A stretch of DNA of 20,092 nt, from the IMG/VR virus record IMGVR_UViG_3300037193_000367, positions 1 through 20,092 of that record; one strand, written 5' to 3'. Shown one piece after another: positions 16,298-18,405 of this stretch. Made by a program: the position numbers and the translations under genes. The notes under the pieces were generated by a model. The model saw only the letters and a list, made by a program, of their open reading frames with translations. It was not told the DNA's origin and made no database searches. The DNA is from a virus. Each line of letters starts with the position of its first letter. The stretch's first letter is position 1.

Positions 16298-16546
16298 GTG
16301 GAACCCGTGCTATTGCAGTACGGCGCGCTGGGCGTGATGGTCTTGGCTGCCGGCGCGATCATCCGGGTGCTGTTCCAACGCGAGACCGCCGCCCACGAGC
16401 GCGAACGGGACCGCGCCGACCGGATGGAAGCCGAGGTGCAGCGGCTCAACAGTGTGATCCAAGACCGCATGTTGCCGATCTTGCACGAGGCGACACAGGC
16501 GATCAGCGAGGCACTGCACCAAGAGCAACGGAAGGACCGCCGGTGA
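16298..16546 (+). CDS. Small membrane protein with one TM segment and a coiled coil (lysis region)
   Basis: The GTG at 16298 follows AAGG (16286-16289) by eight bases. The 82-aa protein has one transmembrane segment at residues about 6-25 (LLQYGALGVMVLAAGAIIRV) and then a long charged helix (RETAAHERERDRADRMEAEV, then QRLNSVIQDRMLPILHEATQ). This layout is common in actinophage lysis regions and is sometimes annotated as holin. A holin with several TM segments lies at 17968, so this one may be an accessory membrane protein or antiholin. It overlaps the next gene as GTGA. Confidence 0.72.
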   Translation: MEPVLLQYGALGVMVLAAGAIIRVLFQRETAAHERERDRADRMEAEVQRLNSVIQDRMLPILHEATQAISEALHQEQRKDRR

Positions 16547-16722
16547 GTCCGTACCGTGACCGCGCCAAGGCGGCCGAGCTGCTGCAAAGCTCGGAAAAGT
16601 TGCGCTCGGATCTGCTCACCGCCGTGGCCAAGCTCGATTCGTACATTGAGCAACTCAAGGCGGTCATGCCACCCATCAAGCCGGAGGCGCCCAGCGATGA
16701 CCCAACGCCGCCGCCTACCTGA
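16543..16722 (+). CDS. 59-aa hypothetical helical protein
   Basis: This short gene starts at GTG, overlapping the previous stop, with AAGGA (16532-16536) six bases upstream. It reads MSPYRDRAKAAELLQSSEKL, RSDLLTAVAKLDSYIEQLKA and a proline-rich end. The middle is a probable amphipathic helix or coiled coil. The next gene starts 26 bases before its stop. Ribosome binding site, exact overlap and helix-forming composition support it as real. It has no recognised function; its neighbours suggest a lysis or membrane-associated role. Confidence 0.68.
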   Translation: MSPYRDRAKAAELLQSSEKLRSDLLTAVAKLDSYIEQLKAVMPPIKPEAPSDDPTPPPT

Positions 16723-16858
16723 GCCGCCGGTCGCCCTGGCCCGCGAAACGACCGAGCTACTCACCACACTTGAGGCCACGGTGGTCACACTGCGGGAGTT
16801 CACCGAACGGTTGCGGACGGCAACAGCCGCACAGGCCCAACGGGAGGATGACCAGTGA
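16697..16858 (+). CDS. 53-aa small helical protein
   Basis: The ATG at 16697 has GGAGG (16683-16687) nine bases upstream, inside the previous gene. A longer open frame to the left has no such site. The product (MTQRRRLPEPPVALARETTE, then LLTTLEATVVTLREFTERLR) has a basic, proline-containing start and a leucine-heptad-like helix that could be a coiled coil. It overlaps the next gene as GTGA. The function is unknown; with its two neighbours it forms a set of small coiled-coil proteins before the endolysin. Confidence 0.65.
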   Translation: MTQRRRLPEPPVALARETTELLTTLEATVVTLREFTERLRTATAAQAQREDDQ

Positions 16859-17334
16859 CCGAGCCGCCGCCGTTTGACCTGTCCACACAGGCCGCACAAC
16901 TGTCCATACAGGTTGAGGGCCTCAGTGCCTCGGTGTCCGCGCTGGCCCGCAAGCAACGCCGAGATCGGACATTGATCCGGTGGACGGTGGCCGGGCTGTG
17001 CGTGAGCCTCGTGGCCTTGGTGCTCGTCGGGGTCGTTGCCGTCCGCGCCAATCAGGCCGCCGACCGGGCCGACAGTGCCTATGCGGTGGCCGAGGCCAAC
17101 AGGCAGGCAGCGCGGCTGACGTGTGAGGCCAACAACCAAAGCCGGGCAACGCAGATCGAGCTATGGACCTACGTCCTCGAACTGTCCGCGCAATCCAACC
17201 CGGCACCGACCCGCGAGCAAGCCAAACGCATTGCACAGTTCCGGACCTACATCCAGCACGTGTTCGCACCGCGCGATTGTTCCAAGCCGGTTACACCCAC
17301 CGCGCCGGTGCCCACACCGACCGGCACTCGTTAG
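16855..17334 (+). CDS. Membrane-anchored protein with one TM segment, 159 aa
   Basis: The GTG start has GGGAGGA (16842-16848) six bases upstream. Residues 1-42 are a predicted cytoplasmic helix with a basic end (RKQRRDRTLIRW). Residues about 43-62 form a TM segment (TVAGLCVSLVALVLVGVVAV). The rest, about 95 residues, would be outside the membrane by the positive-inside rule, with an Ala-rich helix, two cysteines (in LTCEANN and PRDCSK) and a Pro/Thr-rich tail. It precedes the endolysin. A role in lysis (spanin-like or regulator) is possible, but no motif shows it. Confidence 0.72.
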   Translation: MTEPPPFDLSTQAAQLSIQVEGLSASVSALARKQRRDRTLIRWTVAGLCVSLVALVLVGVVAVRANQAADRADSAYAVAEANRQAARLTCEANNQSRATQIELWTYVLELSAQSNPAPTREQAKRIAQFRTYIQHVFAPRDCSKPVTPTAPVPTPTGTR

Positions 17335-17347
17335 GAAGGACGCGCCC

Positions 17348-17971
17348 GTGTCCACCTACCGCAACGAGGACGGCTACCTGGCGCCGTCATTGGTCGCACT
17401 GTTCAACGAGGTCGACGCCCGTTGGCCGGCGCGCTCCAAGGCCAGTGACGGATGGATTGGCGACGCCGCCCACCTCGCCCGGTCAAGCGACCACAACCCC
17501 GACAAGGCCGCCGGTGGCGTGGTCCGGGCCATCGACGTGACCGCCCAAGGCATCAATGTGCCCGAGCTGCTCGCAGCCATCATCAGGGATCCACGCGTGT
17601 GGTACGTGATTTGGAATCGCCAGATTGCCTCGGTCACTTACGGGTGGAAGTGGCAGAACTACACCGGCACCAACCCACACACCAAGCACATTCACATCAG
17701 CATCAAGCACAACCGGGCCGCCGAGACCAGCACGGCCCGATGGTTCAAGTTGCCCACCGCAACAAAGGACACAGACATGACCGACGCGGCAGCACTCCGC
17801 AACGCGGTAAAGCTCGGCACGCTCGACGCCCTACGCGAGTACGGCGCGGCACTGTTCAAGGACAGCGGCGGCACCGCCGACCGGATTTGGGATGAGTCCC
17901 GAGAGAACCAGCGGGCGATCCTTGAGGCCATCAACGAGGTTACGGCGGCGATCAGGGAACGGGAGTCGTGA
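17348..17971 (+). CDS. Endolysin, M15-type metallopeptidase
   Basis: The GTG at 17348 has AGGAAGGA (17333-17340) seven bases upstream; the frame is open farther left but inside the previous gene. The 207-aa product has an N-terminal peptidase domain (about 1-125): GDAAHLARSSDHNPD with His49, VVRAIDVTAQG with Asp63, and HTKHIHISIKH with His114 and His116. These fit the zinc ligands and HxH of M15-type D-Ala/L-Ala peptidases, which cut stem peptides of peptidoglycan; the ligand choice is by eye. Residues about 141-207 are helical (LRNAVKLGTLDALREYGAAL and NQRAILEAINEVTAAIRER) and have no clear cell-wall-binding motif. No signal peptide is seen, so the holin at 17968 would release it. Residue 144 is an internal start candidate. 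Confidence 0.85.
   Translation: MSTYRNEDGYLAPSLVALFNEVDARWPARSKASDGWIGDAAHLARSSDHNPDKAAGGVVRAIDVTAQGINVPELLAAIIRDPRVWYVIWNRQIASVTYGWKWQNYTGTNPHTKHIHISIKHNRAAETSTARWFKLPTATKDTDMTDAAALRNAVKLGTLDALREYGAALFKDSGGTADRIWDESRENQRAILEAINEVTAAIRERES
17764..17769 (+). promoter_or_regulatory. Internal Shine-Dalgarno for nested endolysin C-terminal start
   Basis: AAAGGA lies seven bases before the in-frame ATG at 17777, at the border between peptidase domain and C-terminal helical part. Spacing and strength are as good as at accepted starts in this window. Confidence 0.5.
17777..17971 (+). CDS. Nested C-terminal endolysin fragment (64 aa), in-frame
   Basis: Starting at the internal ATG gives a 64-aa protein beginning MTDAAALRNAVKLGTLDALR and sharing the endolysin C terminus, with no catalytic residues. 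Several phage endolysins are known to be made as full-length enzyme plus C-terminal fragment from an internal start, with the two assembling into one complex; that is established for other phages. Here the evidence is only the well-placed ribosome binding site and its location at a domain border. The alternative is a chance AAAGGA in the linker. Confidence 0.42.
   Translation: MTDAAALRNAVKLGTLDALREYGAALFKDSGGTADRIWDESRENQRAILEAINEVTAAIRERES
17954..17965 (+). promoter_or_regulatory. Tandem Shine-Dalgarno sites for dual holin starts
   Basis: AGGGAA (17954-17959) is eight bases before the GTG at 17968, and GGGAG (17961-17965) is eight bases before the ATG at 17974. Each possible holin start thus has its own well-spaced site. 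Confidence 0.5.
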
Positions 17972-18342
17972 TCATGGGCAGGATCCTGGGCAGGGAACCG
18001 GCCGCGTGGTCCGGACTCATCCAAGCGCTGTTGGCCTTGGCGCTGTCACTCAACCTGTTTGCCCTCACGTCCGAAACCGTCGCCCTCATCATGGCCGTGG
18101 TCAACGCCGCCTTTGGCGTCTACCTGGCGTGGGTGACCGCCAATACCATGCTCGGCGTCATCGTCGGCTTGGCCGAGGCCGTCTTTGCCCTCGTTGCCGG
18201 CTACGGCTATGAGTTGTCCACGGCAACGACCTCGGCCGCCATCGCCGTGGTGACCGTCCTTGTGGGGTTCTTCCACCGCACACAGACCACGCCCTTGCCG
18301 GCGCCGTCGTTCAGCTCGGATCGGTTACCCAAGGCCGCATAG
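17968..18342 (+). CDS. Holin with several TM segments and two possible starts
   Basis: The product is 124 aa from GTG (overlapping the endolysin stop as GTGA) or 122 aa from the ATG two codons later. It has four hydrophobic segments at about 14-33 (WSGLIQALLALALSLNLFAL), 37-56, 61-81 (MLGVIVGLAEAVFALVAGYG) and 90-103, a short basic N terminus (MGRILGREP) and a polar, Ser/Pro/Lys C-terminal tail. Position directly after the endolysin, size and membrane layout fit a holin, which makes membrane lesions that release the endolysin. Phage lambda S also has two starts two codons apart, giving holin and antiholin; here the extra residues are uncharged, so regulation would differ. No gene follows on this strand. 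Confidence 0.78.
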   Translation: MIMGRILGREPAAWSGLIQALLALALSLNLFALTSETVALIMAVVNAAFGVYLAWVTANTMLGVIVGLAEAVFALVAGYGYELSTATTSAAIAVVTVLVGFFHRTQTTPLPAPSFSSDRLPKAA

Positions 18343-18354
18343 GACCAGACATGA

Positions 18355-18397
18355 AAGAGCCGCCCATCTTCCCAAGCCGGGAGGGTGGGCGGCTCTT
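18355..18397. terminator. Bidirectional terminator hairpin between convergent gene blocks
   Basis: AAGAGCCGCCCA (18355-18366) is perfectly complementary to 18386-18397. The stem continues with a T-G wobble pair and six more pairs (18368-18373 with 18379-18384, one of them a wobble), leaving a 5-base loop AAGCC. This 19-bp stem lies 12 bases after the holin stop and 8 bases before the end of the leftward genes. A U-tract is weak on the plus side and short (CTCTTTC) on the minus side. A shared transcription stop for both blocks is strongly suggested. Confidence 0.85.
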
Positions 18398-18405
18398 GTG
18401 CGTTG

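Follow-up and report, generated by a model that had tools for sequence, protein, structure and literature searches.

Does the endolysin gene of this phage give one protein or two? The window, by which we mean the whole 20,092-base virus record analysed here, carries a 207-codon endolysin gene whose only ATG, at 17777, lies in frame with the initiating GTG at 17348 and is followed by 64 codons up to the stop at 17971. The hexamer AAAGGA precedes this ATG at a spacer of 7 nt (17770-17776). A first-pass annotation, made from the letters of the sequence, had proposed on this basis a C-terminal fragment produced beside the full enzyme, and the coordinates it gave are exact (17764-17769, 7-nt spacer, 64 codons). 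Our assessment, held with a probability of roughly three in four and drawn from comparison of sequences, is that one gene yields two in-frame products, the internal start being a selected initiation site and not a chance Shine-Dalgarno (SD) sequence. The features of the locus are collected in Table 1.

Table 1. Features of the endolysin locus in the window
Feature	Position	Strand	Basis
SD AGGAAGGA for the 207-aa endolysin, 7 nt 5' of GTG 17348	17333..17340	+	sequence; duplex -9.4 kcal/mol
Endolysin CDS, 207 aa, GTG start	17348..17971	+	ORF; LAS/M15-like relatives in phages
LAS/M15-like metallopeptidase domain, about residues 10-135	17375..17752	+	invariant alignment columns; AlphaFold2 (AF2) model; VldE fold match
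Codon signature of an initiation region, with 5 codons ending in A from -9 to +5	17750..17794	+	window codon statistics; family shows a similar pattern
Internal SD AAAGGA, in linker	17764..17769	+	sequence; L271 has the identical hexamer spelled by other codons; other SDs in helical-tail relatives
Internal start ATG, Met144 (codon 144 of 207)	17777..17779	+	sequence; all of the non-redundant WFDxAT junctions (34/34) have ATG at this position
Predicted short product, a C-terminal polypeptide of 64 aa with two helices	17777..17971	+	AF2; modules beginning at Met in L082 and L083
Overlapping small hydrophobic (holin-like) gene of probable lysis cassette	17968..18342	+	ORF; hydrophobic sequence

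The endolysin and its surroundings

The host of the phage is very probably an actinobacterium, because phages of Gordonia, Mycobacterium and Arthrobacter have the major capsid proteins closest to the one encoded in the window (up to 59.7%). Within the endolysin, S47, H49, D63, H114 and H116 (SxH...D...HxH) are invariant across 16 aligned relatives, and we take these residues to be the zinc ligands. The AF2 model of the 207-aa protein shows a domain that is confident as far as about residue 130; a linker (139-146, pLDDT below 50) separates it from a pair of helices at 147-170 and 177-206. The top solved fold for the catalytic domain is the C-terminal domain of VldE from Streptococcus pneumoniae (PDB 9fln, 9flm; Z 10.1, rmsd 2.6, 99 residues aligned), well over the scores of unrelated structures, with MepA (Z 4.3) and Sonic hedgehog (Z 3.4) also among the matches. 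VldE has the same LAS-type metallopeptidase fold at 16-17% identity, and no internal-start architecture is implied for it. The best Foldseek match of the endolysin had an E value of 4.8e-3, and a sequence search of solved structures returned chance matches apart from a weak one to VldE. The protein matched PHROG 32486 (E 5.8e-18), a family of unknown function, while a Pfam search gave no match and hence none to M15. With both the conserved residues and a LAS fold found, the catalytic domain is, by sequence and model, a LAS/M15-like metallopeptidase; we prefer this name since VldE is the best fold, MepA and Sonic hedgehog follow far behind, and Pfam is without a match. The 'M15 type' of the first-pass annotation is therefore better put as LAS/M15-like.

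Met144 lies in the low-confidence linker, 3' of the catalytic domain and 5' of the two-helix tail, just where that annotation had placed it, and its description of the C-terminal part as helical agrees with the model. It was also right that a 64-aa fragment would be devoid of catalytic residues, because the putative metal ligands (SxH 47-49, D63, H114xH116) are all upstream. Modelled alone, the tail is predicted to form helices at 4-28 and 33-63 with a mean pLDDT of 77 (moderate confidence). Pfam and PHROG searches with these 64 residues gave no match and no recognised wall-binding domain. We call the tail rare because tail-only searches gave one relative in IMG/VR and none confirmed in bacterial genomes or isolated phages. 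Among the helical-tail relatives compared, it is common to L082 (51% identical) and L083 (43%) only, and it starts at the Met.

The gene overlapping the end of the endolysin had no match in a Pfam search, and judging from its position its function is probably holin-like. Immediately 5' of the endolysin, three small genes (16298-17334) encode hydrophobic or charged helical segments and probably belong to the same lysis cassette. A GC-rich inverted repeat (AAGAGCCGCCCA...TGGGCGGCTCTT) at 18354-18398, between convergent genes, is probably a two-way terminator closing it. Elsewhere, the gene after the endolysin relative of phage Montesquieu is annotated as a holin, and a collagen-like Gly-X-Y repeat gene (L082:4610-5347) lies directly 5' of the endolysin in L082.

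The internal start in the window

The duplex of the internal SD with the 16S tail (-5.8 kcal/mol) ranks 13th among the 49 internal ATGs of the window; it is moderate in strength and weaker than most real starts of the window. When the same peptide is recoded synonymously with the codon usage of the window, 25-30% of the recodings equal it (p 0.25-0.30), and local RNA folding at the site is uninformative. Taken alone, then, the SD of the window is scarcely above chance. The codons around ATG 17777 are less ordinary: 5 of 14 (GCA, ACA, ACA, GCA, GCA) end in A, in genes where 6% of codons do so, and at least five A-ending codons occur in only 0.3% of 14-codon windows across the 21 genes of the window. 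Judged by sequence, the strong evidence for an internal start comes from relatives of the endolysin and not from the window SD itself.

Relatives with helical tails

The closest relative found, L271, is 67% identical over the matched stretch and has a tail unrelated in sequence to that of the window. Its linker reads PKGTSM as opposed to TKDTDM, and its DNA (CCG AAA GGA ACC AGC ATG) keeps AAAGGA in another phase and other codons, 6 nt before the ATG, with an SD of -9.8 and a synonymous p of 0.007. L271, L279, L282, L284 and L345 all came from a profile search that set no condition on an internal site. The junctions read CTGGAGGACGAC-ATG in L279 and L282, GGTGGAGGATTTTGTT-ATG in L284, TCGGAGGAGGGTTC-ATG in L345 and CAAGGAGGCCGACGAC-ATG in L003; in L082 and L083 (AAGGACTGGTTCGAC-ATG) AAGGA and ATG are kept despite a differing linker. 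In each of these seven the SD-ATG lies 3' of the catalytic domain and 5' of a mostly helical tail, and the SDs at this same junction of helical-tail LAS/M15 endolysins are spelled by different peptides.

Across 11 LAS/M15-type helical-tail junctions, part of them picked by motif, the SD averages -9.4 kcal/mol, compared with -7.2 under a synonymous null (Wilcoxon p 0.002); the mean of 498 control internal ATGs in neighbouring genes is -3.6 (Mann-Whitney 3e-7). The controls are not above their own synonymous null, and 31% of them have an SD of -5 or better. Because some of the eleven were chosen through the motif, the unconditioned junctions weigh most, the cleaner cases being L271, L279, L282, L284, L345 and L003. 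The site and its location, its persistence while peptides and codons change, and its initiation-like codon signals can all be read directly in the DNA.

LAS/M15 enzymes with other C-termini mostly do not have the site (PG_binding_1 in L002, and the Glutamicibacter phages BIM BV-113 and Montesquieu). A strict rule, by which a helical tail entails the site and a classical binder its absence, is roughly true and had to be rejected: Actinoplanes phage phiAsp2 Pas66 has a different, longer tail, yet carries AGGAGAGGGAAAC-ATG at the junction, and L301/L302 have coiled-coil tails without an internal site. The Glutamicibacter phage loci L351/L352, which lack the site, are in keeping with the rough rule. 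The protein annotated as hypothetical in phiAsp2 Pas66 (L353:1489-2373) belongs among the LAS/M15-like endolysin relatives; its internal SD, followed by ATG, is strong, and its C-terminal repeat is collagen-like. Those annotated as hypothetical at L351:1489-2355 and L352:1492-2322 are likewise LAS/M15-like endolysin relatives, 58-61% identical to the catalytic domain of the window.

A junction recurring across endolysin families

A pattern scan derived from the L082 junction (KDWFDMA) showed it to be present also in endolysins that carry Amidase_2, M15_4, Amidase_5 and M23 domains. The resulting [SD]-W-F-D-ATG-GCA-[AT] junction (L083-L162, L214-L270) recurs with unrelated catalytic domains and unrelated C-terminal lengths. 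As a guard against circularity, the pattern W-F-D-x-A-T-[KE]-x-[DE]-L, which leaves the Met and all that precedes the motif unspecified, was scanned; two unrelated matches were left out, and x was ATG in every endolysin-like case, with 34 of 34 among the non-redundant junctions. The SD is spelled by the peptides KD (AAGGA), EGD (GAAGGAG), SGD (TCAGGAG), TGD (ACAGGAG) and EED (GAGGAGG), and also by PED (CGGAGG), GRT (GGAAGG), ERT (GAGAGG) and GGS (GGAGGG). Its mean is -8.7 kcal/mol, as against -6.7 when the same peptide is recoded synonymously (Wilcoxon 3.7e-7), and the Ala after the ATG is GCA in 22 of 33 junctions where 5.1 are expected (4e-11); the 34 junctions are partly related to one another, so that fewer independent events stand behind these p-values than they suggest. 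Over codons 0 to +4, GC3 declines to 0.44 from a level of about 0.8, and A3 rises. On sequence grounds, the SD excess, the GCA and the GC3 dip together are the signature of real translation initiation, and since these signals lie at the codon level, conservation of the protein alone does not explain them.

The DWFDM peptide may also serve the protein itself, because two Rothia endolysins (L175, 5907-5930; L213, 6014-6037) keep DWFDMATKADL with no SD, L263 keeps module and peptide with a weak SD, and in several KDWFDM members the amino acids would by themselves produce the SD. The first-pass annotation had let its proposal depend in part on the site being kept in relatives; for the most part this is so, as in L271 and L082/L083, where the peptide changes while SD and ATG stay, with L263 and L175/L213 as exceptions in the wider family. 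Short DWFDM queries by tblastn against INPHARED gave no match, a pattern scan of genome contigs gave mostly unrelated proteins with the Rothia endolysins alone relevant, and KDWFDM is absent from the open-access papers searched.

We entertain, at somewhat less than even odds, the wider idea that actinobacterial phages have in common a portable cassette at the junction (SD, in many cases W-F-D, ATG-GCA, helical module) swapped among LAS/M15, M15_4, Amidase_2, Amidase_5 and M23 endolysins, each of which would be a two-polypeptide enzyme with a small helical assembly subunit in place of a classical wall-binding domain.

Alternative explanations

The simplest alternative is that the AAG GAC codons (Lys-Asp) merely happen to precede the linker Met and that nothing starts there. 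The ordinary SD of the window, with its rank of 13th and its synonymous p of 0.25-0.30, fits such a coincidence, as does the nearly one-third of control ATGs reaching -5 or better. Against it stand the retention of the site in changed codons in L271, the presence of an SD and ATG at this junction in other helical-tail relatives that came from unconditioned searches, the A-ending codon cluster seen in 0.3% of windows and the fact that this is the only ATG in the gene, and we consider coincidence unlikely.

The tail could also descend from a separate gene with its own ribosome-binding site that was fused to the peptidase, leaving the old start behind without a function; that the module begins at Met, and that one junction joins unrelated catalytic domains (Amidase_2, M15_4, M23, Amidase_5), is what module joining predicts. 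Such a relic should decay, whereas SDs above the synonymous null and start-proximal codon bias are seen in many divergent lineages, and the fetched loci held no stand-alone copy of the module, which makes this history very unlikely. Alternatively, the motif may serve the protein or elongation, either as a conserved WFD linker peptide or as a pause between domains, given that SD-like sites are readable as elongation pauses. Conservation of DWFDM as a peptide, and its survival in the Rothia endolysins without an SD, speak for this. A pause needs neither an ATG nor GCA and A-rich codons after it, yet both are found (34/34 and 22/33), and most LAS/M15 cases keep SD and ATG without any WFD; of the three alternatives we rate this one the least probable.

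Comparison with known endolysins and proposed working

Internal starts in endolysins have been proven in other phages (PMC3111421, PMC4777826, PMC9430671), and two types of such endolysins (Type I and Type II iTSS) have been told apart (PMC12203907). The Type II enzymes Lys170, LysIME-EF1, CTP1L and CD27L (PMC7098653, PMC4777826) are encoded by one gene with an internal SD and an in-frame start before the C-terminal module, so that the short product is that module alone, as is predicted for the window. By the architecture seen in sequence and model, with an in-frame internal start, preceded by an SD of its own, where the last catalytic domain gives way to the C-terminal module, the window endolysin is probably of Type II. 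The known Type II enzymes differ in their catalytic domains and carry folded, ring-forming wall-binding domains, in contrast to the LAS/M15-like peptidase and 64-aa two-helix tail of the window, in which no binding domain is recognised; for them, two products and their complex have been shown, whereas the window case is known from sequence and model. Among actinobacterial phages, mycobacteriophage Ms6 LysA/Lysin241 (PMC3111421) and, probably, Corndog gp69 (PMC3314691) have an internal start giving a C-terminal product. In Ms6, TGGAGGT stands 6 nt before a GTG at codon 144, and the short product retains the amidase domain (Type I; PMC3111421), while that predicted for the window contains no catalytic residue.

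The first-pass annotation had treated internal starts as known for some endolysins and knew of no case of this M15 type. The former understates their frequency, as Pinto et al. 2022 (PMC9430671) predict them in about half of the screened endolysins from phages of Gram-positive bacteria and mycobacteria; the latter agrees with our search, in which no LAS/M15-like internal-start endolysin was found described in the open-access literature. That survey likewise places predicted internal SDs and starts outside conserved domains, and it scored genes by predicted initiation rate where we used synonymous codons; its main text mentions neither M15 nor the WFD-ATG junction. Within the open-access literature we also found no description of a helical module without a recognised binding domain as the small product, or of one junction common to endolysins of several catalytic families. 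The novelty of the shared-junction family is accordingly provisional, being judged against open-access literature and, for PMC9430671, its main text.

In the two-product reading, the 207-aa endolysin (LAS/M15-like peptidase and two-helix tail) would be made from GTG 17348, and a second ribosome-binding site in the linker would give the helical tail of 64 aa by itself. In Lys170, LysIME-EF1 and CTP1L the free C-terminal module assembles with the enzyme (PMC7098653, PMC4777826, PMC9430671), and by analogy we propose that the helices of the free tail most likely join it to the tail of the full enzyme in an oligomer; if initiation occurs we lean towards such assembly. The multi-tailed complex may then be better retained on the wall or lyse with better timing, in the manner of Type II iTSS endolysins. 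Translation of the short product, its assembly and its advantage are what we infer from these comparisons.

If the short product is made, many actinobacterial-phage endolysins now interpreted, and cloned, as single proteins would consist of two subunits, and versions produced without the internal start could be incomplete. Synonymous-codon evidence, moreover, offers a simple way of testing whether an internal start is true, independent of predicted initiation rates.
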